Positions 2,915 to 20,625 of a DNA stretch of 39,987 bases are shown here, in pieces (positions within the stretch are counted from its first letter, which is position 1; every line of letters starts with the position of its first letter). Both the position numbers and the translations under genes were made by a program. The DNA lies in NCBI GenBank assembly GCA_017392525.1, contig JAFOVD010000055.1, forward strand, positions 1-39,987, read 5' to 3'. The notes beneath the pieces were generated by a model. The model worked only from the letters and a program-made list of their open reading frames with translations, searched no databases and was not told where the DNA came from. This DNA is from Lachnospiraceae bacterium (lineage in GTDB: Bacteria > Bacillota > Clostridia > Lachnospirales > Lachnospiraceae).

Positions 2915-2990
2915 TTCACTATCAATGCAACTGGCTGCCATTTCAGGCCCTATAGCTTTGCGTCCTTACCTTTCGATAAGTTTGCCCTTT
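2915..2990 (-). promoter_or_regulatory. Cyclic di-GMP-I (GEMM) riboswitch aptamer
   Basis: Read on the minus strand, the stretch holds the hallmark GEMM-I segments in order: AAAAGGGCAAAC, a CGAAAG tetraloop region, GGACGCAAAGC, GGGCCT, and the second hairpin ATGGCAGCCAGTTGCAT, which matches the tetraloop-receptor/ligand arm consensus (GGUAGCCGGGUUACC-like). A good promoter sits just upstream and a strong terminator just downstream. Class I c-di-GMP riboswitches control motility and surface-protein genes in clostridia. Whether this copy is an ON or OFF switch cannot be settled by eye. Confidence 0.93.
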
Positions 2991-3001
2991 TAGTTGTTTA
3001 T

Positions 3002-5063: not shown

Positions 5064-5136
5064 AACATTCCCCCTATAAATTAAAACCACCGTCTTCCGC
5101 TTACAATTATAACCATTTTAACATTTATTTGAAATA

Positions 5137-5443: not shown

Positions 5444-6817
5444 TTACTTAAGCATCTGAAAAACATTTCTCACTTTATTTTCGTCCAAATTTGAATAATT
5501 AATAATAAAATAATGCTCTCTCTTATTTTTATCATCAAAGTAGTAGTCCGAAATCGCACGAATCTTGATTCCACGTTTTAACAAGCGCTGTTCCACTTCA
5601 TAATCGGAGTAATCCGTATCTACTCGAATCAAGAAATGTAAACCTGCATCATTCTCTACAATCTCACAGAGTCCGGTTTCCCGAATAATCTTCACTATCG
5701 CCTTACGCTTCTTCTTGTAAAAAAGGCGCATTCGATTAATATGTTTTTCAAAATACCCCTCAGCAATAAACTGTGCCAATGTATACTGTTCAAAATTAGA
5801 AACGGTACAGGAGTAAATTGACATCTTTTCATAAAACTTATTTGCAAGATTTACCGGAAGCACCATATAACTGATTCGGATTGTAGGAGTCAAAGATTTC
5901 GAAAATGTATTCATATAGATAACTTTCTCTGAAGCATCAATAGAAAATAACGTAGGTATTGGTTTACCTTCCATTCGAAACTCGCTGTCATAATCGTCCT
6001 CAATGATATATCGTCCTTCTTTCTTATTTGCCCACGCCAGAATCTCATATCGGCGACTGGCAGGCATAGTTGTACCTGTTGGATAATGATGATTTGGACA
6101 GATATGTGCCACCTCTGCCTGGCTTCGTTCCAGTTCCTCTACGGTTACCCCGTCTTCATCCATAGATACAAATCGACAGTCAATTCCCCGTCGTTTATAA
6201 ATCGTCTCTAGTTTTTTATATCCGGGATTTTCTATAGCATACCCTGTATCATTTCCAAGCAATTCAATAATCATGCTGTACAGGTACTCTGTTCCGGCAC
6301 CAATTACAATCTGATTTGGATCAACTACCATTCCTCGAAAGGACTGAAGATGCTTTGCAATTGCCTCTCTTAGCGCACGAACTCCGGCCACTGAGGAAAT
6401 CTGCATCAGTTCCTCCTTTTTATTTGACATAACATCTCTGGAGATTTTCGTCCATACAGAAAATGGGAAATTGTCCGGATTGATTCCATTACTTGAAAAA
6501 TCACACTGATATGTTGCTTCCTCGGGAATATGGATATCATAATCCACGTCCCGATTCTGGCGTTTGACTGTCATGCCCTCAATATTTGAAACATAGTAAC
6601 CTTTCTTTGGAAGAGTATAGACATACCCCTCACTGATTAACTGGTCATATGCATTTTGAATCGTAATGGTACTAACCCCATGATTTTGCGCAAATGTACG
6701 TTTTGACGGCAATCGATCTCCGGGCTTTAAGTTTCCGGCGATAATATCCTCTTTTATGCAACGATAGACGTATAGATAAATAGGTCCCTCAATTTTTGTA
6801 AAGTCATATGTAAGCAT
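5444..6817 (-). CDS. pdxR: PdxR, MocR-type regulator of vitamin B6 synthesis
   Basis: GntR-type winged helix fused to a fold-type I aminotransferase-like domain; 457 residues, normal for MocR proteins. The helix-turn-helix is in residues about 10-75 ([19 protein letters not shown]). The aminotransferase-like part keeps the PLP-site features: EDDYDSEF (about 273-280), the Schiff-base lysine K307 in [12 protein letters not shown], and [13 protein letters not shown] precedes the ATG. It diverges from pdxS-pdxT, the usual arrangement for PdxR, which activates pdxST when PLP is low and represses itself. The assignment rests on both domain architecture and the divergent PLP-synthase operon. Confidence 0.92.
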
Positions 6818-6840
6818 CTTTTTCCCTCTTAAACCATCCC

Positions 6841-6912
6841 TTTGACGCCTTCTTCAGTCGTCAAATCTGGAATAAAAATTTAATTTATTTTGGTGATTTT
6901 TATATTACCAGA
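6841..6912. promoter_or_regulatory. pdxR-pdxS intergenic inverted repeats, candidate PdxR operators
   Basis: Two inverted repeats fill the divergent region: TTTGACG (6841-6847) with CGTCAAA (6859-6865), and TCTGG (6866-6870) with CCAGA (6908-6912), the latter flanked by near-matching AATAAAAAT and ATTTTTATATT arms. A -10-like TTATAC at about 6918-6923 has no good -35 box, consistent with an activator-dependent pdxS promoter. MocR proteins often bind direct repeats, so which element is the operator is open. Confidence 0.45.
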
Positions 6913-6966
6913 TTTCTTATACACTTAAAAGCAAAATTTGGCAAAGACCAATGGAGGAAAAAGATT

Positions 6967-7845
6967 ATGGATAAAACTACACAGTATGAACTTAACAAAG
7001 GGTTGGCACAGATGTTAAAGGGTGGTGTCATTATGGATGTCACCACACCTGAACAGGCAAAGATAGCCGAGAAAGCCGGGGCATGCGCCGTCATGGCACT
7101 TGAACGAATTCCTGCAGATATTCGAGCTGCCGGAGGTGTTTCTAGAATGAGTGACCCTAAGATGATTCAGAGCATTCAGAATGCAGTAAGCATTCCGGTT
7201 ATGGCCAAATGCCGTATCGGTCATTTTGTAGAAGCACAGATTCTTGAAGCTATTGAAATCGACTATATCGATGAGTCAGAAGTCCTATCACCTGCCGATG
7301 ACATCTACCATATTGATAAAACCGCTTTTCACGTACCTTTTGTATGTGGCGCAAGAGATCTGGGCGAAGCACTCCGCAGAATCAATGAAGGAGCGTCCAT
7401 GATTCGAAGCAAAGGAGAGCCCGGAACCGGAGATGTTATCCAGGCAGTCCGACATATCCGAAAAATCAACGCTGAAATCCGTAGAATCACATCCCTTAAC
7501 AAGGACGAATTATACGAGGCTGCTAAAGAATTACGTGTTCCTACCACCCTTGTGCAGTATGTACATGACCACGGCAAACTACCTGTTGTCAATTTCGCTG
7601 CCGGTGGTGTTGCCACTCCTGCTGACGCTGCTCTTATGATGCAGCTGGGGGCTGAAGGTGTATTTGTTGGATCTGGAATCTTCAAATCCGGAAATCCTAA
7701 GAAACGTGCTTCTGCAATTGTCCAGGCAGTTACAAATTATAATGACGCCAAACTGATTGCAAAGCTTTCAGAGGATTTGGGGGAAGCTATGGTGGGTATC
7801 AATCCTGATGAAATCAAGGTAATCATGGAAGAAAGGGGTATCTGA
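6967..7845 (+). CDS. pdxS: PLP synthase subunit PdxS
   Basis: The synthase (lyase) subunit of the DXP-independent vitamin B6 pathway makes PLP from ribose 5-phosphate, glyceraldehyde 3-phosphate and ammonia. The 292-residue beta/alpha barrel is full length. D24 (VIMDV), K81 ([12 protein letters not shown]) and K149 (RSKGEPGTG), the catalytic residues described for the Bacillus enzyme, fall at the same numbers. A GGAGG site precedes the ATG. The gene is followed after one base by pdxT, with which the product forms a 12+12 complex, and is divergent from pdxR. Confidence 0.98.
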
Positions 7846-7846
7846 T

Positions 7847-8425
7847 ATGAAAATAGGAGTTCTCGCCCTACAAGGCGCATTTATAGAACATATTCAATGT
7901 CTGGAGAAGCTTGGTGTAAATGGAATTGAAATAAGACAGTCCACAGACTTAGACGGATTAGACGGATTGATTCTTCCCGGCGGAGAAAGCACCGTTCAAG
8001 GAAAGCTCCTTCATGATCTCAAGATGTTTGATAAAATCAAACAACTTATATCCGAAGGGCTTCCTGTACTTGGAACCTGTGCCGGATTAATTCTTCTGGG
8101 AGCCAACGTAATAAATGCTGACTCCCAAAATCAGAATCCACATCTTGGAACACTTCCGGTGACAGTACAGAGAAATGCATACGGCCGACAACTCGGAAGT
8201 TTTGTGCACACAGGAGATGTAGGAGCCATCGAAACATTTCCTATGGAATTTATCCGTGCTCCCTATATCAAAGATGTCTCAAATGATGTTGAGATATTGT
8301 CCCGTGTGGATTCGAAAATCGTAGGTGTACGATACAAAAATCAGATTGGACTCGCATTTCATCCGGAAATGACCGATGACTTGCGGATTCATAAGGCTTT
8401 TATAAATCTAATCAAAGCATCTTAG
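7847..8425 (+). CDS. pdxT: PLP synthase glutaminase subunit PdxT
   Basis: Class I glutaminase that releases ammonia from glutamine and channels it to PdxS. The 192-residue protein shows the full triad: nucleophile C78 in GTCAGLILL, and H172 and E174 in FHPEMT. LPGGEST (about 43-49) forms the oxyanion-hole region. AAAGGGG at the end of pdxS serves as ribosome site; the ATG is one base after the pdxS stop, so the genes are co-translated. It converges with the MarR gene two bases away, with no terminator visible between them. Confidence 0.98.
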   Translation: MKIGVLALQGAFIEHIQCLEKLGVNGIEIRQSTDLDGLDGLILPGGESTVQGKLLHDLKMFDKIKQLISEGLPVLGTCAGLILLGANVINADSQNQNPHLGTLPVTVQRNAYGRQLGSFVHTGDVGAIETFPMEFIRAPYIKDVSNDVEILSRVDSKIVGVRYKNQIGLAFHPEMTDDLRIHKAFINLIKAS

Positions 8426-8427
8426 AT

Positions 8428-8841
8428 TTATACTGTGCCTAAATATATTTTCTCGAAAAGGGTCATAAACACTTCCTTTTCTTCTTCTGAAAGACTCGCC
8501 ATAGCGCGAGCTTCCAACTCACGGAAGATTTCCTCTGCTTGTTTCGATAGTGTTTTGCCCTTTTCGGTCATATATATGTGTATTTCTTTATTATTTCCCT
8601 GTTCTTTTCGACGCTCTATCATTTTCTGCTTTTCCATTTTTTTCAAAATCGTTGAAAGAGCTCCCGGTGTCAGGTAGCAACCGGCGGCAACTTCTTTATG
8701 AGTTGCACCATTATTGTCCAAAAGAAAATTCAAAACCTTAGGCTGTCCGGGTGATAACTCGGAAGATTTGATTTTCTCATGAAGCAGCTGATTTAACAGT
8801 GAATAATTTGCTAATAATAGATTAGAATAATTGATTTGCAT
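8428..8841 (-). CDS. MarR-family transcriptional regulator
   Basis: A 137-residue winged-helix regulator. The recognition-helix region is at about 45-70 (THKEVAAGCYLTPGALSTIL) and the wing follows at about 70-95 (RRKEQGNNKEIHIYMTEKG), in the order typical of MarR proteins. GGGGGG precedes the ATG. It is divergent from the large flavin reductase, and a perfect palindrome lies at that enzyme's transcription start. The simplest reading is repression of the reductase, relieved by a small, perhaps aromatic, ligand; the ligand cannot be told from sequence. Confidence 0.9.
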   Translation of the reverse strand: MQINYSNLLLANYSLLNQLLHEKIKSSELSPGQPKVLNFLLDNNGATHKEVAAGCYLTPGALSTILKKMEKQKMIERRKEQGNNKEIHIYMTEKGKTLSKQAEEIFRELEARAMASLSEEEKEVFMTLFEKIYLGTV

Positions 8842-9035: not shown

Positions 9036-11027
9036 TTGCGTTACCAAAAACTATTCACACCAATAAAAATTGGTTCGCTTGAGATTCCTAACCGCTATGC
9101 TATGGCACCTATGGGACCACTTGGTCTGGGTGACTGTGAAGGTGGCTGGAATCAAAGGGGTATTGATTATTATACACGACGTGCTAAGGGGGGAATCGGA
9201 CTAATCATCACCGGTGTTACTTTCAGTGATACTGAAGTTGAAAAGCCTTCATTTCCAAATACTCCAAATTCCACATACAATCCAGTACAGTTTGTCCGTA
9301 CCAGCCGTGAAATGACGGAACGAGTTCACGCCTATGGTTCAAAAATCTTTTTACAGATGAGTGGCGGATTTGGACGTGTTACAATTCCTACAAATCTCGG
9401 TGAATTCCCACCGGTTTCCGCTTCTGCTGTTCCGCATAGATGGTTAGACAAAACATGTCGTCCTCTGACTGTTGAGGAAATTCATGGTATCGTCAAAAGC
9501 TTTGGAAAGGGCGCTTACAATGCAAAGCGTGCGGGGTTTGACGGTGTTGAAATCCATGCAGTTCACGAGGGATATTTAATTGATCAGTTTGCTATCTCTT
9601 TCTTCAATGAGAGAAATGATGAATACGGTGGTTCTCTTGAAAACCGCTTGCGTTTTGCGCGTGAAATTCGTGAAGAAATTGCGCGTACCTGTGGCCCGGA
9701 CTTCCCTGTTGCTCTCCGTTACTCTCTTAAGAGTATGATTAAAGATTTCCGTGAGGGTGCTCTTCCAGGGGAAGAATTCGAGGAAAAGGGACGTGATATT
9801 GAAGAAGGTATTGAAGCAGCAAAACTTCTTGAAAAATACGGTTATGATGCCCTGGATGTAGATGCCGGTACTTATGATGCCTGGTGGTGGAATCACCCAC
9901 CAATGTATATGGAGAAAGCTCCATACAAGGAATTTGCAAAAATTGTAAAAGAAAATGTAAATATCCCTGTAATTATGGCCGGTCGTGTAGACAATCCTGA
10001 AACTGCTCTCGCCTGTATCGAAGAAGGAATCACTGATATGGTCTCTCTGGGTCGCCCTACTTTAGCCGATCCGGATATTGTAAATAAGATTCGTAGAGAC
10101 AAGGCAGAATTCGTTCGTCCATGTATCTCCTGTCAGGAAGGCTGTATGGGAAGAATTCAGACCTACTCTCTTATTAACTGTGCCGTAAACCCTCAAGCCG
10201 GTAAGGAGCGAATCAGCGATTACCGTCCAATCACAAAAGCAAAGAAAGTTCTAATAGTCGGCGGCGGTCCAGCCGGATGTGAAGCTGCCCGTGTTCTCGC
10301 AGAACGTGGTCATATTCCTGTTCTCTATGAAGCATCTGACCGTCTGGGTGGAAATCTGATTCCTGGCGGTGCACCTGACTTCAAAGAAGATGATATTGCA
10401 CTTGCTAACTGGTACCAGACAGAGTTAAATCGACTTGGCGTAGAAATTCACCTGAATACAAAAGTTGATGCTGAAACTGTTAGAAATGCAGACTTTGACT
10501 CTGTCATGATTGCAACAGGATCACGTCCTAAGATGTTTTCACTTGGAGACGATTCCAAGGTTTATTCTGCTGAACAGGTCCTTCTTGGACAGAAAGAAAC
10601 CGGTAACAAAGTCGTTGTTGTCGGTGCAGGACTTGTTGGTTGCGAATTGGCTCTTGATCTTGCTCATAAAGGCAAAGACGTCACTATTATTGAAGCTCTT
10701 GACAAGATCATGGCTGTGAACGGACCTCTTTGCAGTGCCAATAAAGAAATGCTGGAACAGCTTATCCCATTCAACAGAATCAAAGTTCAATGCAGTGCCA
10801 AAGTTACCGGTTTTAAAGACGGTATCCTCCGTGCAGAAGTTGGTTCTGAAGTAAAAGAATTCGATGCTGACAGTGTTGTTCTCTGCGTAGGATATGCCAG
10901 TGAGAATTCTCTTTATGAAGAATTGAAATATGACATTGACGAAATTTATCAACTTGGTGATGCCAAGAAAGTCTCCAACATCATGTACGCTATCTGGGAT
11001 GCATTTGAAGTTGCTAACCACATTTAA
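9036..11027 (+). CDS. Old-yellow-enzyme-type 2-enoate/2,4-dienoyl-CoA reductase (FMN, 4Fe-4S, FAD)
   Basis: A 663-residue NAD(P)H-dependent reductase of the BaiCD/BaiH, FadH and 2-enoate reductase family. Residues 1-340 are the FMN TIM barrel, with HAVHEGYLIDQF and NERNDEYGGSLENR. A 4Fe-4S motif C-x2-C-x3-C-x11-C begins near residue 362. An FAD Rossmann motif (VLIVGGGPAGCEAA) and an NAD(P) motif (VVVVGAGLVGCE) follow. Such enzymes reduce activated C=C bonds of bile acid intermediates, cinnamates, dienoyl-CoA or plant and drug compounds. The start is TTG at 9036, preceded by AAAGGAGG; no in-frame ATG fits. It is single-gene, with its own promoter, operator-like palindrome and terminator, divergent from a MarR regulator. 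This suggests a substrate-induced detoxification or electron-sink enzyme; the substrate is unknown. Confidence 0.93.
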   Translation: MRYQKLFTPIKIGSLEIPNRYAMAPMGPLGLGDCEGGWNQRGIDYYTRRAKGGIGLIITGVTFSDTEVEKPSFPNTPNSTYNPVQFVRTSREMTERVHAYGSKIFLQMSGGFGRVTIPTNLGEFPPVSASAVPHRWLDKTCRPLTVEEIHGIVKSFGKGAYNAKRAGFDGVEIHAVHEGYLIDQFAISFFNERNDEYGGSLENRLRFAREIREEIARTCGPDFPVALRYSLKSMIKDFREGALPGEEFEEKGRDIEEGIEAAKLLEKYGYDALDVDAGTYDAWWWNHPPMYMEKAPYKEFAKIVKENVNIPVIMAGRVDNPETALACIEEGITDMVSLGRPTLADPDIVNKIRRDKAEFVRPCISCQEGCMGRIQTYSLINCAVNPQAGKERISDYRPITKAKKVLIVGGGPAGCEAARVLAERGHIPVLYEASDRLGGNLIPGGAPDFKEDDIALANWYQTELNRLGVEIHLNTKVDAETVRNADFDSVMIATGSRPKMFSLGDDSKVYSAEQVLLGQKETGNKVVVVGAGLVGCELALDLAHKGKDVTIIEALDKIMAVNGPLCSANKEMLEQLIPFNRIKVQCSAKVTGFKDGILRAEVGSEVKEFDADSVVLCVGYASENSLYEELKYDIDEIYQLGDAKKVSNIMYAIWDAFEVANHI

Positions 11028-11031
11028 AACA

Positions 11032-11060
11032 AACTGCCAGTCAATGACTGGCAGTTTTTT
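11032..11060. terminator. Bidirectional intrinsic terminator
   Basis: AACTGCCAGT pairs with ACTGGCAGTT around CAATG, followed by six T on the plus strand. It lies between the reductase stop and the stop of the convergent glycosyltransferase, whose last codons it touches. Confidence 0.92.
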
Positions 11061-12777
11061 ATGCCCAGTATCCCCCCTGGGTATTTATCAAAATTTTCGG
11101 AATACAAAAAAAGTCTTTTCCCTCTTCTAACCCCAACTCTTTCAACTTAGGAATTGCTTTACCATCTTCAATTTCCGGCAATGCAAAAACAATAAATGTA
11201 CCTTTTTCTTCTGTTTTAATATCCTCAAATGAATGACATTTTAATCCACCTAATTTCTTACCGATATACGAACTGTCCGGATGAACAAAATAATCATTTT
11301 CATTTAAATGTAATAACGCAAACAGGTTCTGCATCGGAGTATTGTAATATCCGTAAAAAATCTTCTTTTTTCCCTGCGCAACTGCTGCCATAGCCCCCTG
11401 AGAGTTTTCAATCTTATCACTCAGATTTCTGAATCCATTTAGGAATTCGCTTTCTATAGCATCATACCCCCATGCAGTTCGTTCTTTCATGCTCATATAA
11501 TATTTTTCAAACTCTGAGGTATTATAAAAGTCAATAAACGGCTGTCCCATAAAATGGTAAACAACATTCTCACTTATTTTCACAGTTTTCTGCTTCTCAT
11601 ACTGTGTTGGCACATTCCATGATTCATCTAATAGCAATGTTGATGAATTGAGATAATAATTTAGTGCGTCCTGATCCGGTAAAGACGTTCTCGGATATTT
11701 TCTCAAGAACTCATGGGTCATTTCCAATAAATCACCCTTCTCTCTTATCTTCTCAAGATTCATCAAAAGTACACCGGAATTAAAATACCTGTCTTTTGAA
11801 ACATGCCCCTCTTGTATAAACTTCGGCAAATGAATTCCGTTATCGAAAATAATATCCTTCTTTGCAGCCAGTGAATAATTTGAAATATCTATATTCCATA
11901 ACTCTTTAATATCCCGATGAAACAGCAGATCTGCATCCAGATATATAATTTTCTTGTGATTTTTTAATACTCTTGGCATAATCAGCCGGAACATCGCTCC
12001 AATTGTATAATAAGAAACCCATTTATTCTCAGACATGAAGTCTTCTGCATTAAGCTTATGAAACTGAATATAACTACCAAAACGTCCTGCTGTCTCTAGC
12101 AGTTTCAATCTATTATATTCCGTCAACGTTTCATCATGAAAAATGTGGAAACACACCTTTGACTGTGTATTTTCCAGTATTGATTGAATTACCGTTCCCA
12201 CATATTTCGTATAATGACCACTCTTATCATACAGCCCAAATGCAACCTGAATAAATTCATCCTCGTTACATGCTTTCTCATCCATAACCTCATCGTAAAA
12301 GTCCGCTGCTTCAAGCAGATTTTTTCTAAGCATAAATGAGTCGTCTGTATCAAAAGACATTCGATTCCATAGCGTTGCAACCAGTCCCTTGGCCTTCATA
12401 TCTTTTTGCATACTCTCTGTTGGATAAACCACGCGTGAAACCGGTCCTAAGGGCTCTAAACTGTCATATGGAGTCGAGTCATGCATAAACAGTACAATCC
12501 TGACATTTTTGATACCACGTAGTTTCATCAAAAGAAGTCTCTCAAACTCAATACCATTTCCTGTAGGCAATTGCACCCCAACAACATCCGATGGCTCAAC
12601 AGCAGCAATAATTCCATCCAAACGCTTCCTAAGTTCGTCTAGCGAATCCGTTTCCACCGGATATCGATATATACCAAGCTCAAAAAAATCAAGCATCCTA
12701 GCAGCATAAGCTACCTTATGCTGTAAAGATGCCATCTCATTTTTAATCCCATATAGATTTGTAATATGAATCTTCAT
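11059..12777 (-). CDS. Fusion glycosyltransferase: Gtf3-like N-terminus plus GT8 domain
   Basis: A 572-residue cytoplasmic protein with three parts. Residues 1-150 (KIHITNLYG, FFELGIYRYP, KRLDGIIAAV, VRIVLFMHDSTP) resemble the N-terminal half of Gtf3/GtfC glucosyltransferases from serine-rich-protein glycosylation loci. Residues about 173-415 are a GT8 domain with the DxD motif D281-A-D283, FNSGVLLMN (332-340), LPDQDALNYYL and the H408/G411 pocket. Residues about 470-572 form a Rossmann-like tail (KKIFYGYYNTPMQN, GTFIVFALPEIED). GT8 enzymes use UDP-sugars, retaining mechanism. It is the last gene of the dlt-like operon, 26 bases after the carrier-protein gene, so it probably builds or decorates the glycan acylated by the other products. 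The half Gtf3 domain may bind acceptor rather than catalyse. Confidence 0.85.
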   Translation of the reverse strand: MKIHITNLYGIKNEMASLQHKVAYAARMLDFFELGIYRYPVETDSLDELRKRLDGIIAAVEPSDVVGVQLPTGNGIEFERLLLMKLRGIKNVRIVLFMHDSTPYDSLEPLGPVSRVVYPTESMQKDMKAKGLVATLWNRMSFDTDDSFMLRKNLLEAADFYDEVMDEKACNEDEFIQVAFGLYDKSGHYTKYVGTVIQSILENTQSKVCFHIFHDETLTEYNRLKLLETAGRFGSYIQFHKLNAEDFMSENKWVSYYTIGAMFRLIMPRVLKNHKKIIYLDADLLFHRDIKELWNIDISNYSLAAKKDIIFDNGIHLPKFIQEGHVSKDRYFNSGVLLMNLEKIREKGDLLEMTHEFLRKYPRTSLPDQDALNYYLNSSTLLLDESWNVPTQYEKQKTVKISENVVYHFMGQPFIDFYNTSEFEKYYMSMKERTAWGYDAIESEFLNGFRNLSDKIENSQGAMAAVAQGKKKIFYGYYNTPMQNLFALLHLNENDYFVHPDSSYIGKKLGGLKCHSFEDIKTEEKGTFIVFALPEIEDGKAIPKLKELGLEEGKDFFCIPKILINTQGGYWA

Positions 12778-12803
12778 AACGTCCCCCCTAATTACATTCG
12801 GAA

Positions 12804-13031
12804 TTAATCTTCCTGTAAACGCTCAATCATTGCAAGCATTGCTTCTGCCGAATTAAAGTTCTCCGGTGTCATCTCTGCTGCATCAATTGTAATATCATAT
12901 GCGTCTTCCAATTCGCCAACAAGCATAATAATTGTAAAAGAATCCAGAATATGATTATCAATTAATTTATCCTCATTTTCAAAATCAATACTGTCATCTA
13001 CTTCATTTAAAATTTCTAATAACTTATCCAT
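12804..13031 (-). CDS. DltC-like acyl/aminoacyl carrier protein
   Basis: A 75-residue acidic four-helix carrier protein. The phosphopantetheine serine is S31 in DNHILDSFTIIMLV, matching the LDSF motif of DltC. I choose the ATG at 13031 because GGAGAAAGG lies upstream; an in-frame TTG six codons earlier is less likely. It lies between the decarboxylase and the glycosyltransferase genes in the same operon as the adenylation enzyme, so it should be charged by that enzyme. It would serve as platform for decarboxylation and as donor for the MBOAT protein. No phosphopantetheinyl transferase gene is present in the window. Confidence 0.92.
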   Translation of the reverse strand: MDKLLEILNEVDDSIDFENEDKLIDNHILDSFTIIMLVGELEDAYDITIDAAEMTPENFNSAEAMLAMIERLQED

Positions 13032-13095
13032 TTCCTTGCCTTTCTCCAAAAACCTATATCTATAGTATCACTTTTCCCAATATATACCACACCTT

Positions 13096-14292
13096 TTATA
13101 AAAGCGGTGTATTGAAATGATACGTTTCAAACAGACGCCGTACCAGCTCCAAAACACCATCGCGGCTATATAGCACAACTGCCGGTAATTCGTGACTTAA
13201 GAACAGTGACATTCCTTCATATACGGAGTATGCTCCAACATTTTCAAAAATAACATAGTCACCCTTGTGTAGTTCAGATGACACATAATCACCAACCAAC
13301 ACATCATTTGTGGTGCATAGCGATCCATGAATTGCATAGTGAATCTGCTCTGTATCGGCTTTCGTATGCTTGCTTTTCTTAATTACATGCATATGTGGAA
13401 CATACATACCACGCAGCTGCCCATCATAGTGAATCTGGTGAATACCACCATCTACGATTACATAATTTCTACCATCGCTAACTTTCATATCGCGGATTTC
13501 TGTAATGTAATATCCGCAGTTATATGCCAGGGCACGTCCCATTTCCAGAGAAATCTTGCCGTTCCAGGTCATAGCCTCTAAATACTTTTTAAACTCCAGC
13601 AGCTCCTCTTCCGTCGTAACTGTTTCATCCTGGCCTTCAAAATATGGAACACCAAATCCTGTTCCATACTCGAGGTTGCAAACCTTTCTTCCGGTTTCTT
13701 CAAATATTTTCTGAAAGAACTTATCCAGCTTCTGAATCTCTTTTGCATGTTTGGAAAGCTTATGTTTCTGCGTTCCGGTAAAATAATGAATTCCATAAAA
13801 ATCGATGTTTTTCATCATATCAGAATTCAAAATAGCAATAATAGTCTCCTGATCCATCCCGAACTGTGCACAATTTAAGCGGAAATAAACCTTGGCGATA
13901 ATACCGTATTCCTCTGCCAGTTCACGGATAATCTTCAGCTGACTTTCAGATTCTACCGTATAGATTGCACGATCTTTGCAGTAATCCATAATTACGCGCA
14001 TATCCTCGCGTTTCTTTAAAACTCCGGAAATCAATAATCTCTCCGGCTGAATCCCCAATTCTGCACAAATCAGAAATTCACCATAGGAACACACTTCTAT
14101 ACGATCTGTCTTCTCAAGAGATGCCGCTGTAAGAAAGGGATTGGTCTTCATACAATAATTGATGGCTACCTCTCCTCCAAAAACCTGCTTAAATCTATCA
14201 TATCGCTCATAAAAAGCATCCACATCGAATACATACTGCGGAGTACCATAGTTTTCAATCGATTTCTGCAGTGTTTCATCCTGAATTCTCAT
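13096..14292 (-). CDS. PLP decarboxylase of the LysA/BtrK type, probably acting on a carrier-bound amino acid
   Basis: A fold-type III PLP enzyme of 398 residues. Visible motifs are the Schiff-base lysine K49 in INYCMKTNP, CSYGEF (68-73), GIHYFTGTQ (167-175) in place of HxHxGS, EYGTGFGVPYF (208-218), EMGR (250-253), the C326-x3-D330 motif (LCTTNDVL) and AYSVY (354-358). The GTQ and LCTxxDVL variants are those I associate with BtrK, which decarboxylates glutamyl-ACP in butirosin synthesis, and with decarboxylases beside AMP-ligase/ACP pairs in exosortase loci, rather than with true diaminopimelate decarboxylase. The ATG overlaps the ligase stop by one base (TAATG), and the carrier gene follows. 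Free-lysine synthesis is an alternative, but the context argues against it. Confidence 0.85.
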   Translation of the reverse strand: MRIQDETLQKSIENYGTPQYVFDVDAFYERYDRFKQVFGGEVAINYCMKTNPFLTAASLEKTDRIEVCSYGEFLICAELGIQPERLLISGVLKKREDMRVIMDYCKDRAIYTVESESQLKIIRELAEEYGIIAKVYFRLNCAQFGMDQETIIAILNSDMMKNIDFYGIHYFTGTQKHKLSKHAKEIQKLDKFFQKIFEETGRKVCNLEYGTGFGVPYFEGQDETVTTEEELLEFKKYLEAMTWNGKISLEMGRALAYNCGYYITEIRDMKVSDGRNYVIVDGGIHQIHYDGQLRGMYVPHMHVIKKSKHTKADTEQIHYAIHGSLCTTNDVLVGDYVSSELHKGDYVIFENVGAYSVYEGMSLFLSHELPAVVLYSRDGVLELVRRLFETYHFNTPLL

Positions 14293-15824
14293 TACTCAAC
14301 TACCTCCAGCTCAGTCAATACTTTTCGATCTACCTTGCCATTCTTATTCAGCAAAAATTCCCGCACATGGGAAAAACGATTAGGAACCATATATACCGGA
14401 AGAATCTCCTTTAATTCCAGATGCAAAGATTTCTTATCCTTGGTTCCACTATAGTAGGCGGTTATTCGCTGTCTCTTTTCATCATAGGAACAGATACTTC
14501 TCTCAACGCCTTCCACTGCATTGATTCCACGTTCAATCTCCTCTAATTCGATTCGATGTCCCATATGTTTAATCTGAAAATCCTTTCGACCGGCAAAATA
14601 CATCTCTGAATCTTCGGATATTACAGCCATATCACCAGTTCGATACATACGTACCACTTCACCCTCCTCATTAGTATAGCTTACAAAATGAAGGGCCGTC
14701 TGTTCCTCATTATGGTAATACCCATCTGCAAGAGATTCTCCCGTAACACAGATCTCTCCCGTTTTTCCAACCTCTGTAATCACTTGATTGTTCTCATCCA
14801 AGAGGAACACCTGTCTTCCCGGGAATGCTTTACCAAGAGGAAGCTTATCTTCTTTCCCATAAGTCCGATTCAACTCATAATAAGTGCAATTACATGTGAT
14901 TTCAGATGGACCATAGAGGTTTACGAATCTAGTTCTAGGGAGGTTTTCCTGCCAAATCATCAATTGCTTCATAGGCATAACTTCTCCTGAAAACATAACT
15001 CTCTGCAGATCATATGGCACACGATACTGAAATCCCTTTAGTCCGGAGATAATGCACAAGGCGGAAACGGCCCAGGTCAGATTTGTAACATGATTATCAC
15101 AGATATAATCGAGAAGTCTTGCCGGGGTTGAAAAATACTCTCTTGGAATCAACACAAGTGTTGCTCCCGTAAACAGAGCACTAAATATATCCTTTACGGA
15201 GACATCAAAATCAAATGGTGCCTGATTACCGATAATATCTCTCTCTGTAAAATGAAATATTTCCGTAAAATGTCCGATAAAGTCCAATACACACCCATGG
15301 TTAATCAGAATACATTTCGGTGTCCCGGTTGACCCGGATGTAAATACCCCATACAAAGGAGTACTTTTTGTGATTTTCTTTCGCATATCTGCAAGTTTAT
15401 CTGAGGATGCCACATTACTATTTAGCATCTCTGATAGAAGCATTGTCTTTCCGAAATACCCGCTTTTATTTAATTTTTCTTTAAACTGCTCATCCACGAT
15501 GACCAGTTTTGGATTCAATACATCTAATATCTTTGAAATTCGTTCTGCCGGTTGCTCCGGATTTAAATATGTGTAAAATCCGCCTGCATAAATGATACCC
15601 AAAACACCAACCATTAATTCCACTTGTTTTTCACAAAAAATAGCAATGGGATAACCGGATTCTTCCGGTTTTACAATCTCAAGAATCTTCCTGGCAGCAC
15701 ACTCACTACGTTTCTGTAATTCTTGCCAATTGAGAAAAATTGCAGGATCAATAACTGCCTTTTTCTGTCCGTATTTCTCTACGGTTTCCTCAAATCTATC
15801 TAAAATACTAATTTCACTGTGCAT
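14292..15824 (-). CDS. DltA-like amino acid adenylation enzyme (carrier-protein ligase)
   Basis: An ANL-superfamily enzyme of 510 residues that should activate an amino acid with ATP and load it on the carrier protein. Core motifs: FTSGSTGTPKC (161-171, with C where G is usual), NQAPFDFDVS (200-209, with the amino-group-binding Asp at 207), NLYGPSEIT (302-310), YRTGD, GRKDFQIKHMGHRIELEEIE and the catalytic lysine in NKNGKVDR. The resemblance to D-alanine ligase DltA is strong. However, the DltA segment FCGEVLP, whose Cys is linked to D-Ala preference, reads FSGEVMP here (S279), so the substrate may not be D-Ala. The gene is translationally coupled to the decarboxylase and follows the DltD-like gene by 10 bases. 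Confidence 0.9.
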   Translation of the reverse strand: MHSEISILDRFEETVEKYGQKKAVIDPAIFLNWQELQKRSECAARKILEIVKPEESGYPIAIFCEKQVELMVGVLGIIYAGGFYTYLNPEQPAERISKILDVLNPKLVIVDEQFKEKLNKSGYFGKTMLLSEMLNSNVASSDKLADMRKKITKSTPLYGVFTSGSTGTPKCILINHGCVLDFIGHFTEIFHFTERDIIGNQAPFDFDVSVKDIFSALFTGATLVLIPREYFSTPARLLDYICDNHVTNLTWAVSALCIISGLKGFQYRVPYDLQRVMFSGEVMPMKQLMIWQENLPRTRFVNLYGPSEITCNCTYYELNRTYGKEDKLPLGKAFPGRQVFLLDENNQVITEVGKTGEICVTGESLADGYYHNEEQTALHFVSYTNEEGEVVRMYRTGDMAVISEDSEMYFAGRKDFQIKHMGHRIELEEIERGINAVEGVERSICSYDEKRQRITAYYSGTKDKKSLHLELKEILPVYMVPNRFSHVREFLLNKNGKVDRKVLTELEVVE

Positions 15825-15834
15825 GTCCTAACCT

Positions 15835-16794
15835 CTAAATCGATTTAATACGCTGAATAGCCTTTTCCGATCTTGCATTATATTCCTTTAATAATTTATT
15901 CCAGGATTTTGCCACCTTCATATTTTGATGATCTTTCAACTGGAAATGCTCCTGAAGATACTGGCCTATAAAGTCCGTTGTCTTCACTCCACCTGCAGAA
16001 TTAAGATGGTCTCCTGCATCTCTGGTATCCGTTGCCCAATCAATCTGCATCTTATCATTTTCAAGATTCAAATCCACATAGCTAATACCAAGGCTCTCTG
16101 CCAAATCAGAGATTCCGTTATGCTTTGCATAATTGTAGTTCACCGGAGAAGGCGCAGAATAGAGAACCAACTGTGCCCCCTTATTCTGACACATCTTATT
16201 AATCTCCTCTACAATCTGCCGGTTTTGTTCACAAATAGCCTCCCTCTGATCTGTAGGTGCCATATAGTCACCTGCATTGCAAGGTTCAACATCTGAATTA
16301 ATCCAATACCCCTTAAAATTGTTATGAACTCCATGAAATGGAGATTTCCAACAATCATGATTTTTAATCAGTGGACAGTATTCAGACAGCGTTTCTGCAA
16401 TCTGTGCCTGAAGAGAATCATCCTCTTTATCGGCTCTAAATAAACTGTTTGTCTCAAGGAGCACAACCTTAGGACTCTGTGTCTCCAACGCCACTTCAAG
16501 TATATCTCGGCTTTCACTGAGTTTCGCCGCAGTTTGACCTGCCACAAAGCTTGTAATTCCATATTTTTCCCATAACTGCAGTGGAGAAACTGTCGTGTAG
16601 CTCTCACTATCTCCAATAACGAGCATATCCAACGAGTTTTTGTCTTCCACTTTCAGCATGGTATAGACACCATTTTTTGTGTTTGCCAGATTGTACTTCA
16701 CCATAAATTTAGGTGTCATAATATGGCCAAGTACTGCGATAATTGTTATTAGTAATGTAAAAAATGCGATATTATTCGCCAATTTCTTCTTCAT
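15835..16794 (-). CDS. DltD/AlgJ-like membrane-anchored SGNH protein
   Basis: A 319-residue protein with one N-terminal membrane anchor (NIAFFTLLITIIAVLGHIM) and an extracellular SGNH-hydrolase-like domain. Nucleophile motif: VIGDSESY, S63. The C-terminal Asp-His motif is RDAGDHLNSAGG. I choose the ATG at 16794 (MKKKL), with AGAGG upstream, over an in-frame ATG eight codons earlier that overlaps the MBOAT gene and lacks a ribosome site. In dlt and alginate-acetylation systems, such proteins partner the MBOAT channel and pass the acyl group to the extracellular polymer. Its position immediately after the MBOAT gene supports this. Confidence 0.85.
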   Translation of the reverse strand: MKKKLANNIAFFTLLITIIAVLGHIMTPKFMVKYNLANTKNGVYTMLKVEDKNSLDMLVIGDSESYTTVSPLQLWEKYGITSFVAGQTAAKLSESRDILEVALETQSPKVVLLETNSLFRADKEDDSLQAQIAETLSEYCPLIKNHDCWKSPFHGVHNNFKGYWINSDVEPCNAGDYMAPTDQREAICEQNRQIVEEINKMCQNKGAQLVLYSAPSPVNYNYAKHNGISDLAESLGISYVDLNLENDKMQIDWATDTRDAGDHLNSAGGVKTTDFIGQYLQEHFQLKDHQNMKVAKSWNKLLKEYNARSEKAIQRIKSI

Positions 16795-16804
16795 ATCTAA
16801 ACCT

Positions 16805-18349
16805 CTAGAATCCTGCATAAATCAGGTCTGCAGGCTCATACCCTGCACCGTATGCACCGAAAATTATAATTGCAAAAATCAATAAATAATAAACTGCCCA
16901 CCGCTTCGGTCTTGTCATAGACGGAATCATTTCAAATGTTTCCGGACACTTCTCCAGACGATAATCCATCCAGAAAACAATGGCCGAAGCAATTCCTATA
17001 ATCAGAGCATCTCCCCTGCCGATTCCCATATTGAAAAGTTCAGTAAACATTCCCATTTCAACAAACTTTCCGGCAAATGTATTACTGCACATACGAACAA
17101 ACTGTTCCAGGGTCTCCGCCCTAAAGAGCATTTCACCCAACAGAATGATGAACCAGGTTCTAACAATACGTATTCCAGTGACTATACGTCCATCCGTACG
17201 CAGATGAACAATCTTGTAAAATTTCTCGCCCAATGGCTCTAACGCAACTTCTAAAAGCAATATTACAAAATAATATACACCGTACATGATGTATGGAATT
17301 TTAGGTCCATGCCATAAACCATTCAGCATCCATACCGGGAACAATGCAATTGCTGAGGTCACCACCATGGTGATATATTTTCCCATATGCTTACGACCAT
17401 ACTTATTCCATTTCTTCATCAGTTTCGATGTGGTCACTGGGTAGAAAATATAGTTCTTAAACCAAACACCCAGGGATATATGCCATCTGCGCCAGAACTC
17501 TGCAGCGCTTTTCGCAAAAAACGGCTGTCTAAAATTCTCCGGAAGCTTAACATTAAAGATTCGGGCAGAACCAATTACAATATCAATTGTTCCAGAAAAT
17601 TCCATGTACAACTGAACTGTAGTAAACAGTGCACAGATTACAATCATTACACCGGTAAAATTGGTATTTACTCGATAAAAATTATTAACAACCGGATTCA
17701 GGCGGTCAGCAATAATCATGCGCTTAAAGAGACCCCAACCAATTCTGATTGCTCCCTGAACAATACTATCCGCTGTTATTGGATTTCCTTCAAACAGCTG
17801 ATCCTTTGTATCTGAATAACGACAGATTGGTCCCTCCATCAAGGTCGGGAAAAAGATCATAAACAAAAAAAGTTTTGCAAAATTACGTTCCGCCTCAATT
17901 CTCTTCCAATAAACATCCAGAATGTATCCTACGGCCTGCAATGTATAGAAAGAAATTCCAATTGGTACAAGAATCTCACCCATAGTAAAGGTAGTTTCAT
18001 GACCAAGTTGTGTAAGCACCTGACTTATAATATCCAGAGTAAAAGCAGTATATTTAAGCACTGCCAGAATACCCACAACAGAAACAACTGCCGTAAGCAT
18101 TACTCTCTTTTTCTTCTTTTTTAGAATCTTCTTGTCGGAATTATGGATAGAAACTATCCCGATTGCGGCTCCATAAGCAACTGCTGTTGTTATAACAGCC
18201 CAATAGATAAGTGTCTGGCTAATCAGCATAAAAAACGTTACGCTTGATGCCAATAAGCCAACCCACCGATAGCGTTTTGGTAAAACCTGATACAGTAACA
18301 TCGCTATCGGCAGGAATATAATAAAATATGTATTTGTATTATATGCCAT
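16805..18349 (-). CDS. MBOAT-family O-acyltransferase (DltB/AlgI-like)
   Basis: A 514-residue polytopic membrane protein, about 11 segments. MBOAT signatures are EFWRRWHISLGVWFKNY (284-300) and the catalytic H347 in LNGLWHGPK. It should move an acyl or aminoacyl group from a cytoplasmic carrier to the outside. The C-terminus ends PADLIYAGF. This Tyr-containing tail resembles the C-terminal Tyr motif of the small protein DltX, proposed as a covalent aminoacyl relay in Dlt systems (from memory); no separate dltX gene is visible here. First gene of the six-gene operon. The length and C-terminal extension are closer to AlgI/PatA-type MBOATs than to the shorter DltB. Confidence 0.92.
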   Translation of the reverse strand: MAYNTNTYFIIFLPIAMLLYQVLPKRYRWVGLLASSVTFFMLISQTLIYWAVITTAVAYGAAIGIVSIHNSDKKILKKKKKRVMLTAVVSVVGILAVLKYTAFTLDIISQVLTQLGHETTFTMGEILVPIGISFYTLQAVGYILDVYWKRIEAERNFAKLFLFMIFFPTLMEGPICRYSDTKDQLFEGNPITADSIVQGAIRIGWGLFKRMIIADRLNPVVNNFYRVNTNFTGVMIVICALFTTVQLYMEFSGTIDIVIGSARIFNVKLPENFRQPFFAKSAAEFWRRWHISLGVWFKNYIFYPVTTSKLMKKWNKYGRKHMGKYITMVVTSAIALFPVWMLNGLWHGPKIPYIMYGVYYFVILLLEVALEPLGEKFYKIVHLRTDGRIVTGIRIVRTWFIILLGEMLFRAETLEQFVRMCSNTFAGKFVEMGMFTELFNMGIGRGDALIIGIASAIVFWMDYRLEKCPETFEMIPSMTRPKRWAVYYLLIFAIIIFGAYGAGYEPADLIYAGF

Positions 18350-19080: not shown

Positions 19081-20625
19081 TTATTCTGCTTCTGCTACTG
19101 TTTCTTCTACATCTTCTGATGCAATTTTACCGTTAGCAACACGCTTCTCATAACGTGTATAGATAATCCATGCTACCAATCCAAAGATTACAGGGCCACT
19201 GAGTGACCAGAATGTTGTCTTGATATCACCATCAAGAGCTGGCTGAATAATAGCAAATGTATTTGCAAGTAATAGAGTTAATGTTACAACATAACCCCAG
19301 AAATTTGCAGACTTCTGTGTCTTGTAAACAACGAAGCTTCGATCGATTCCTTCCATCTTCTTAAACTTAGGGAATGCAAATGAGATAAACATATAAGGAA
19401 CTGTCATACCAACATTTACCATAGCTGTTAAGATCAGGAAGAACTGCTGCATTGTATCTCCACCGAAGGATACAAGAAGAACCATAACACAAACAATTGT
19501 GCACTGAACCCACATAGCATTCTTAGGCATACCGTCTTCTGCGATTTCGCCCATCTTGCCAGGCCAGAGCTCCTTTGGAGTACCATCGATTAACTGCTTT
19601 AATGGAGAATATACAAGTGTAAATAATGCACCCATAAGTGCAAGAAGCATAATTAATGCATATACACGAGCAAATCCATGTGCAAGTGCTACCTGAGTAG
19701 CAGCAGAAGCACCGAAAGCCTTACCAAATGCAGCTGCAAAGTTAGACATAATTACATAGGAAACATTTCCAAGTGTAATGCTGTCTGTTCCAAGGATTTC
19801 ACTATAGTTTGTGAATGAACCTACTAACATAATAAGAAGTGCATATCCTACTACAATAACCATAGCAGCTGTAACGATTCCCTTAGGGAAGTTCTTCTTA
19901 GGATTTTCTGTCTTATCTACAAGACCACCAACGGCTTCAATTCCACCGTATGCAAAAAGTGCATATACGATGAAGGACAGAATCATGATTGGGCTGCCCT
20001 GGTAAGCAACGTTCAGCGGAGTCTTAAGAGATTCAAATCCCTGGAATGGCTGCTCAAGCTGACCATGACGGGCAATAATCATTACAACAGAACCTACTAC
20101 AACCATAATATTGATTGCAAGTACTGCAGTACCACCAACAGATGTTACCTTGCTGATCTTATCAATACCCTTTGCATCGAAGTATGTAATGAAGATGAAG
20201 AATAACACTGCCATAATACCAAGAAGTCTGGATCCTGATAAGAATTCAGAACCGAAAAGTGACCAGTTAGAAGTACAGTCTTCACCAAAGATGATATTTG
20301 ATACAGGTACCCAGATACCTGAAGAAACATTTACCATCCAAAGTACATAAGATGTATACCACATAAATGTTCCGATGAATGCGTACTTTGGTCCAACGGA
20401 CTTACACATCCATGAATACATACCACCTGTTTCATGACGGAATGCAGAACCGAACTCTGCTACCATGAATGCAAATGGAATGAAGAATAAGATACCAGCA
20501 ATAACGAACCAAGGAATAGCTGCGTATCCCATTAAATAATAGGATCTTGGAATGTTATTGAATCCGTATACTGATGTGAAAATCATCAGAATGAGGGACA
20601 TTAACCCAAGTTTTTTCTCTTTCAT
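19081..20625 (-). CDS. APC-superfamily amino acid transporter (YjeM/GadC-like)
   Basis: A 514-residue protein with 12 predicted membrane segments and a hydrophilic acidic C-terminal tail (EDVEETVAEAE). The first helix SLILMIFTSVYGFNN and the segment FVYALFAYGGIEAVGGLVDKTENP match the helix 1 and helix 6 consensus of amino acid/polyamine transporters. Its overall length and TM1/TM6 style are closest to the glutamate:GABA antiporter group (YjeM, GadC). The exact substrate cannot be read from sequence. It is monocistronic, divergent from a LytTR response regulator/sensor pair that probably controls it, and ends in a strong terminator. Confidence 0.9.
   Translation of the reverse strand: MKEKKLGLMSLILMIFTSVYGFNNIPRSYYLMGYAAIPWFVIAGILFFIPFAFMVAEFGSAFRHETGGMYSWMCKSVGPKYAFIGTFMWYTSYVLWMVNVSSGIWVPVSNIIFGEDCTSNWSLFGSEFLSGSRLLGIMAVLFFIFITYFDAKGIDKISKVTSVGGTAVLAINIMVVVGSVVMIIARHGQLEQPFQGFESLKTPLNVAYQGSPIMILSFIVYALFAYGGIEAVGGLVDKTENPKKNFPKGIVTAAMVIVVGYALLIMLVGSFTNYSEILGTDSITLGNVSYVIMSNFAAAFGKAFGASAATQVALAHGFARVYALIMLLALMGALFTLVYSPLKQLIDGTPKELWPGKMGEIAEDGMPKNAMWVQCTIVCVMVLLVSFGGDTMQQFFLILTAMVNVGMTVPYMFISFAFPKFKKMEGIDRSFVVYKTQKSANFWGYVVTLTLLLANTFAIIQPALDGDIKTTFWSLSGPVIFGLVAWIIYTRYEKRVANGKIASEDVEETVAEAE

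Follow-up and report, generated by a model that had tools for sequence, protein, structure and literature searches.

A Dlt-like operon with a BtrK-like decarboxylase in Lachnospiraceae, predicted to edit the aminoacyl group on its carrier

The DNA analysed here, referred to below as the window, is a stretch of 39,987 nucleotides (GenBank assembly GCA_017392525.1, contig JAFOVD010000055.1, positions 1 to 39,987 of the forward strand) from a Lachnospiraceae bacterium, whose assembly comprises 1.99 Mb in 65 contigs and is 79% complete. Between positions 11059 and 18349 it carries an operon that resembles the dlt operon for D-alanylation of teichoic acids and in addition encodes a pyridoxal 5'-phosphate (PLP)-dependent decarboxylase. 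An earlier note, made from the letters alone, had described six tightly packed genes in this place, and we indeed find six open genes, all on the minus strand and at the positions first described. The features of the operon are as follows.

16805..18349, minus strand: membrane-bound O-acyltransferase (MBOAT) of the DltB type; PF03062 44.5 bits, TIGR04091 147 bits (cut-off 375)
15835..16818, minus strand: SGNH-type protein in the position of DltD, with a hydrophobic N-terminal stretch; GDS and D..H motifs, no Pfam or NCBIfam match
14292..15824, minus strand: DltA-like stand-alone adenylation ligase; PF00501 188 bits, TIGR01734 276 bits (cut-off 560)
13096..14292, minus strand: fold-III PLP decarboxylase, BtrK-like; PF02784/PF00278, TIGR03099 180 bits (cut-off 478), LysA model TIGR01048 169 bits (cut-off 298)
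12804..13031 (to 13049 in the listed frame, which begins with TTG), minus strand: carrier protein with an LDSF phosphopantetheine site; PP-binding 19.8 bits (cut-off 20.8)
11059..12777, minus strand: Gtf3-like N-terminus followed by a GT8 glycosyltransferase; PF01501 126 bits, NF007325 over residues 1-103
11031..11057, minus strand: terminator-like stem-loop at the end of the operon; 12 pairs, 6 of them G-C, consensus match only

From the MBOAT gene to the GT8 gene the intergenic gaps are -14, 10, -1, 46 and 26 bases, and the terminator-like stem (11057-11031) begins 2 bases beyond the GT8 stop. Alignments and a motif check found the catalytic residues of the operon enzymes intact. For the carrier, the ATG at 13031 suits the relatives better than the listed TTG at 13049.

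Related loci were collected in two samples. The ligase-drawn sample holds the best 80 of at least 584 candidate loci by ligase similarity, in which the other genes were found by BLAST, while the decarboxylase-drawn sample holds loci located with the decarboxylase profile, 43 of which were fetched (19 of these repeat decarboxylases already in hand); a filler stretch, L182, was left out. Genes are called adjacent when they lie on the same strand and less than 400 bases apart. In the ligase-drawn sample, of which L022 from Lachnospiraceae bacterium AC2012 is the best locus, a core of five genes emerges, comprising the DltB-type MBOAT, the SGNH protein, the DltA-like ligase, the PLP decarboxylase and the carrier. 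All five are present in 68 of the 80 loci, a count that includes a second SGNH cluster (10 loci, named by motif, scanned members without a Pfam match) and in which some of the incomplete loci are cut by contig ends. The decarboxylase was found in 79/80 loci, and a DltB-type MBOAT match and an SGNH gene (both clusters counted) in 71/80 each. Ligase and decarboxylase are adjacent in 79/79 cases, decarboxylase and carrier in 74/75, and carrier and ligase in 4/76. The commonest order is ligase-decarboxylase-carrier-MBOAT-SGNH (44 loci), followed by MBOAT-SGNH-ligase-decarboxylase-carrier (10), MBOAT-SGNH-decarboxylase-carrier-ligase (3) and minor variants; since the set is kept through these reshuffled orders, we regard it as a working unit. 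BLAST against the fetched stretches of the 43 decarboxylase-drawn loci recovered the ligase in 41 and the carrier in 40, with all five genes in 18 and all but the SGNH gene in 13; L187 and L204 have the decarboxylase without a ligase in the fetched stretch. The decarboxylase is encoded in 41 of 200 genomes of the window's bacterial family (31 of 164 of good quality) and in 3 of 299 genomes across the phylum, the window's own being included in both samples.

The search for the six-gene set that the earlier note had proposed returned a recurring core of five, without the glycosyltransferase. Among 229 loci, tblastn (E<=1e-5) detected the GT8 gene in the window's genome and in one relative only, at L022 and its copy L003, which is the same place, and we reject it as a component of the operon, with the reservation that many of the stretches are short and a distant copy could be missed. 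It is a local addition, which shares the transcription unit by its spacing and lies outside the conserved core. The decarboxylase, on the other hand, belongs to the Dlt-like set as regularly as had been supposed, and by its gene content the operon is a real, widespread variant of a predicted Dlt-like aminoacylation system, with a BtrK-like decarboxylase as its regular part. In 18/80 loci, two-component genes lie directly beside the core and on its strand, which suggests regulated use of the operon; a histidine kinase is the commonest neighbour cluster (26 loci), before a response regulator (22) and an ABC ATPase (13), with one representative annotated for each.

The decarboxylase family was aligned in 92 rows, 88 of them distinct. 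K49, E250-x-G252-R253, C326, D330 and Y355 are present in 92/92 rows and T327 in 89/92. BtrK, an enzyme of butirosin biosynthesis, is the best PDB match of the family profile (194 bits, the next being 170), and at Q143, T174, G282, T327, F364 and L365 the family agrees with BtrK against all six LysA-type rows, each of these letters being kept in at least 89 of the 92 rows. The Glu of the CExxD motif of LysA is replaced by Thr in 89/92 rows and by Ser in 3 (the window reads CTTND), and the segment that reads RPxxY in LysA differs in the window decarboxylase. The tree, for which we chose the root, separates the LysA rows along a branch (97), with BtrK placed between LysA and the decarboxylase family. 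The likeness to BtrK proposed in the earlier note is thus supported by both the profile match and the active-site letters, and the protein is best described as a fold-III decarboxylase with intact PLP residues and a BtrK-like rather than LysA-like substrate site.

Two versions of a different assignment have to be weighed here, namely that meso-diaminopimelate (DAP) would be loaded and then decarboxylated to a lysyl-carrier, or that the gene would be a spare LysA. Among the NCBIfam models LysA ranks second (169 bits, after TIGR03099 with 180), and solved DAP decarboxylases closely trail BtrK in the PDB list. However, the LysA model separates the window gene, which stays below its cut-off, from four LysA genes of relatives (378-395 bits), the CExxD and RPxxY segments are changed as described, and direct loading of free lysine would be simpler than making lysine on the carrier. 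The window's genome, moreover, has a second gene of the decarboxylase fold, on contig 3, for which LysA is the best model. This gene weakens the objection that the operon enzyme acts on free DAP only, though its 271.5 bits fall short of the 297.9-bit cut-off. We consider a DAP-type function very improbable.

The substrate pocket of the ligase was read from motifs and by alignment to the window ligase, in which residues 207, 208, 211, 250, 277, 279, 303, 311 and 312 are D, V, K, T, M, S, L, C and N; K211 corresponds to position 239. The mapping seems sound because the same extraction gives DVWHVSLID for the nonribosomal peptide synthetase (NRPS)-type adenylation gene of L112, a string that we take to be close to the serine code. 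The combination of D207, K211, C311 and N312 is found in 90 of 91 distinct ligase rows from loci with the decarboxylase, as opposed to 5 of 53 from loci without it, where "without" means no decarboxylase match above 130 bits within the fetched stretch (91 and 53 are recounts after removal of copies; the earlier figures, without the copies of the window's genome, were 95 and 60). The single row that has a decarboxylase and lacks the motif is L012, of whose place L190 is a longer copy. Conservation of the nine pocket columns exceeds that of random nine-column sets, 0.33% of draws being as high. Among the ligases of the decarboxylase-drawn loci, D.K.S.CN is kept in 38/41, and position 239 is occupied by K in 39 ligases and by R in 2, hence basic in 41/41, but K is also seen in 20/53 rows without the decarboxylase. 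K239 is typical of glutamate-activating NRPS domains, and a basic residue in this position suggests an acidic substrate.

Three of the 41 ligases, none of which is in the ligase tree, have deviating pockets. L190 and L205 read PLDYIAAIRDIY in place of the window's PFDFDVSVKDIF, and thereby lose Asp235, the usual amine contact, and carry Arg at 239, while L200 has a DAK pocket. All three keep the decarboxylase with nearly all BtrK-like letters (in L205, three of the letters checked are changed). Because L190 and L205 retain the decarboxylase and lose Asp235, we take a bound carboxylate to be required and the amine to be free of its usual contact, which fits activation of the side-chain carboxyl, with the amine far from the activated group. 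In L190 and L205 the same chemistry likely serves a second substrate. The small residues V236 and S301 in the pocket weakly favour aspartate over glutamate.

Could the operon serve ordinary D-alanylation, the decarboxylase being a bystander? The 276-bit match to the DltA model and the DltB-type MBOAT speak for it. Against it, the canonical and near-canonical DltA proteins of the same bacterial family share the pocket DLMVLCTV[AC] (L134-L142), from which the window's DVKTMSLCN differs at 8 of 9 letters, so that the ligase is a canonical DltA neither by pocket nor by score, and seven canonical or near-canonical DltA loci (L164-L170, among which Pfam confirmed DltD only in L165) gave no decarboxylase match. 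We find this explanation scarcely credible. The cut-off of TIGR01734 is exceeded in only 6/200 genomes of the family, three more reaching 513-546 bits, and in 0/148 of a class-level sample. As far as the lists show, these 200 genomes are, by their handles, the same as those in which the decarboxylase was counted, and three of them (G269, G277 and G339) have both the decarboxylase and a canonical or near-canonical DltA. The possibility raised earlier, that a canonical dlt operon elsewhere accounts for all aminoacylation, found no support in the window's genome, where one DltA-like gene was seen in the 79% complete assembly. According to a survey of gut commensals, complete dltABCD was scored absent in 8/8 of them (PMC10877564).

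The remaining partners are those expected of a Dlt-like system, with one qualification. The MBOAT family profile (13 rows) matches only the DltB entries 6bug and 8jem in PDB at E<=0.01, hhalign aligns it at a probability of 99.9 with six DltB proteins from the window's bacterial family, and H290 and H347 are conserved in at least 97% of 72 rows; it is therefore a DltB-type MBOAT with the catalytic His, in spite of its score under the TIGR04091 cut-off. The carrier has its Ser in 91/91 rows and the preceding Asp in 84, and in the PDB it is matched best by aminoacyl and D-alanyl carrier proteins. We classify it as a DltC-type carrier with a DS site, though NF003464 (DltC, 34 bits) and NF058660 (35.6 bits) both remain below their cut-offs. 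In the SGNH protein, GDS (S71) and D267 are invariant and H271 is kept in at least 90% of 35 rows.

On this basis we think it rather probable that the operon performs a Dlt-like envelope aminoacylation in which the aminoacyl group is edited on the carrier. We infer an acidic substrate, activation at its side chain, decarboxylation on the carrier, export and transfer to a polymer. The ligase would adenylate an acidic amino acid at the side-chain carboxyl, aspartate being the likeliest and glutamate possible, and load it onto the carrier; the BtrK-like decarboxylase would then strip the free alpha-carboxyl to leave a beta-alanyl-carrier, or a carrier with gamma-aminobutyric acid (GABA). The MBOAT and the SGNH protein would move the acyl group across the membrane onto hydroxyls of an extracellular polymer, where the amine acyl ester would bear one positive charge, as D-Ala does. 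The preference for aspartate, and hence for a beta-alanyl tag with GABA as a possibility, is a guess. By general chemistry, a beta-alanyl or GABA ester has a more basic amine and is hydrolysed more slowly.

There are precedents for such editing. BtrK decarboxylates glutamyl-BtrI (PMC7857480; mentioned in PMC8503589), VinN loads VinL with 3-methylaspartate, which has to be carrier-bound before VinO decarboxylates it, and FlvN uses Asp (PMC11284099). The same source describes the reverse case as well, in that IdnL3 works on free beta-glutamate. By analogy, the decarboxylase of the window might act on a free amino acid, with the ligase loading the finished amine acid (beta-alanine, GABA or another), which would give the same tag by a different order of steps. 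Such an order could also be served by the loci that share the pocket and have no decarboxylase (L096, L151, L154, L171 and L177), where the product could be drawn from other metabolism. On the other hand, the basic residue at position 239 in all 41 decarboxylase-linked ligases fits a substrate whose second carboxylate has not been removed, the closest solved relative, BtrK, is carrier-linked, and the decarboxylase gene is next to that of the carrier almost throughout. We therefore judge prior decarboxylation to be unlikely, yet worth keeping in mind.

Another alternative concerns the acceptor, since the carrier-bound amine acid could go into a secreted or membrane small molecule or lipid instead of an envelope polymer. 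Where the product of a carrier-linked decarboxylase is known, the enzyme belongs to an antibiotic pathway, no polymer-synthesis gene was recognised among the annotated recurring neighbours, and L024 and L090 have the ligase, decarboxylase and carrier and no MBOAT or SGNH match though the stretch continues. However, the frequency of the DltB-type MBOAT and of the SGNH gene in the ligase-drawn loci counts against it, and the annotated neighbours (histidine kinase, regulator, ABC ATPase, permease, GH3) do not include a peptide or polyketide synthase. We hold a small-molecule or lipid product to be distinctly unlikely.

Editing on the carrier followed by transfer to the envelope remains the reading that we prefer, and the following observations count against it. 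The SGNH gene had to be rejected as DltD on sequence: it has no Pfam or NCBIfam match, PF04914 included, in which DltD of L165 scores 299 bits, hhalign against the DltD profile gives a probability of 27, and its weak PDB match is to thioesterase I (E 0.19); of the description "DltD-like", position and catalytic motif stand and the sequence family does not. No acceptor polymer is tied to the operon, and no polymer-synthesis gene was recognised among the annotated recurring neighbour clusters. The exosortase parallel drawn in the earlier note was dropped as evidence, because TIGR03099 fails to discriminate: four LysA genes of relatives score 162-199 bits and the LysA-type gene of the window's own genome 139, so that the 180 bits of the window gene mean little, and no exosortase was matched among the 23 window genes scanned. 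Three of the 41 ligases in decarboxylase-drawn loci (L190, L205 and L200) have other pockets, and K at 239 occurs in 15 DAK and 5 DVK pockets among the rows without the decarboxylase. The five loci listed above share the full pocket and lack the enzyme, which led us to reject a strict rule that the pocket equals the decarboxylase; four of them come from genomes (G334, G345, G363 and G005) outside the 41 that have it. The ligase tree places L154/L171 and L096/L151 within the DVK group (81) and apart from the branch of decarboxylase loci (99), and L177 within that branch; because of this placement the pocket is probably older than the decarboxylase, which would have been added later and lost in L177, so that the pocket does not require the enzyme. 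Finally, the uniformity of the pocket in the 80 loci is partly by construction, as they were retrieved by ligase similarity, and the 19 repeated decarboxylases limit the independence of the other sample. As to the polymer, the window's genome has one sulfatase-family gene (a 737-aa frame) that could be LtaS-like, and no match to a CDP-glycerol glycerophosphotransferase in its 79% complete assembly.

Of the interpretation given in the earlier note, the Dlt-like set with a regular, BtrK-like decarboxylase has held, and the glycosyltransferase as a component and the membership in DltD have not. Like dltABCD, the operon unites a stand-alone ligase and a carrier with a DltB-type MBOAT and an SGNH protein; it differs by the decarboxylase, by the pocket (DVK..S.CN instead of DLMVLCTV), by an SGNH protein that is not DltD by sequence, and by a ligase, carrier and MBOAT that are all under the curated Dlt cut-offs. 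With BtrJ/BtrI/BtrK of butirosin, which turn glutamyl-ACP (acyl carrier protein) into GABA-ACP, it shares a BtrK-like decarboxylase with common active-site letters and a carrier protein. BtrJ is a ligase of a different type from DltA, while the window system would load by a DltA-type adenylation ligase and has MBOAT and SGNH partners instead of antibiotic assembly. The macrolactam starter modules VinN/VinL/VinO and FlvN resemble it in the adenylation enzyme, the stand-alone carrier and the PLP decarboxylase acting after loading, as described in PMC11284099, but they serve polyketide synthesis and involve a further adenylation enzyme as well as an acyltransferase, whereas ours is an O-acyltransferase operon of Clostridia. 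The exosortase A-associated TIGR03098/TIGR03099 pair likewise combines a ligase and a PLP decarboxylase in one locus, and among NCBIfam models TIGR03099 gives the window decarboxylase its highest score; the window proteins, however, reach only 154/592 and 180/478 bits, respectively, and no exosortase was matched beside them among the 23 window genes scanned. We found no earlier description of a decarboxylase inside a Dlt-like operon, or of the surface amine chemistry proposed here, in the open PMC literature, searched by titles and abstract starts, with most subscription journals outside it.

Among the same-pocket loci without the decarboxylase, L096 has a GNAT gene (6008-6859) between ligase and carrier, L151 a formyltransferase gene (2-850) after the carrier, L154 a gene of the beta-eliminating-lyase type before the ligase and L177 a transglutaminase-like gene after the carrier, and L171 has no extra gene between the core genes. 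The GNAT and formyltransferase neighbours suggest a slot in the operon for enzymes that edit the carrier-bound group. A further Dlt-like operon without the decarboxylase also has a GNAT/formyltransferase gene beside its carrier (L147:6692-7555). Other pockets were encountered, too. The Dlt-like operons L116, L149, L150, L160, L161 and L162 have SM[LT]Y[LM]ALDI, without the amine-binding Asp235, and their ligases may load an acid that lacks an alpha-amine. A second class of Dlt-like ligases, with the pocket DAKC[AC]GLGM, comprises L125, L127, L129, L132, L133, L155, L157-L159, L163, L172, L176, L178 and L179, and no decarboxylase match was found in the fetched stretches of these loci. It is conceivable, though we advance this only tentatively, that Lachnospiraceae and their relatives hold a modular envelope-acylation family, built of ligase, carrier, MBOAT and SGNH protein, in which the pocket class picks the acyl group and the slot enzyme can edit it on the carrier, with the decarboxylase group replacing D-alanylation.

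Several neighbours in the window are recorded here for completeness. A PdxR-type regulator, PdxS and PdxT (5444-8425, each over its NCBIfam cut-off) place genes of PLP synthesis about 2.6 kb from the operon of the PLP decarboxylase, the region between them holding a small frame (8428-8841) and the gene of an OYE-type oxidoreductase (9036-11027). A c-di-GMP-I riboswitch (2923-2996, minus strand, 65.9 bits) lies upstream of the gene of a 434-aa protein (1442-2746), for which there is no Pfam match at E<=1e-5 and no NCBIfam match at E<=1e-20, and an EAL-domain gene (3162-5090) adjoins the riboswitch region. Upstream of the operon, at 19081-20625 on the minus strand, there is a YjeM-type transporter of the glutamate/GABA family (730 bits, cut-off 400), and an amino-acid permease cluster was seen near the core in 4/80 ligase-drawn loci, L022 included.

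D-alanylation sets the surface charge and the tolerance to cationic peptides in many Gram-positive bacteria. As judged from the genes, many gut bacteria seem to carry a Dlt variant whose tag is probably a plain amine and not D-alanine. If the view of a modular family is true, the slot would be occupied by a decarboxylase here, an N-acetyltransferase in L096 and a formyltransferase in L151, and beta-alanyl or GABA esters would last longer and stay charged at higher pH, in bacteria that are mostly without dlt. If editing to an amine acyl group takes place as proposed, annotation with dlt models would miss a charge-setting tag of many gut Clostridia, and the chemistry of their surface amines would be open to a direct test by mass spectrometry.

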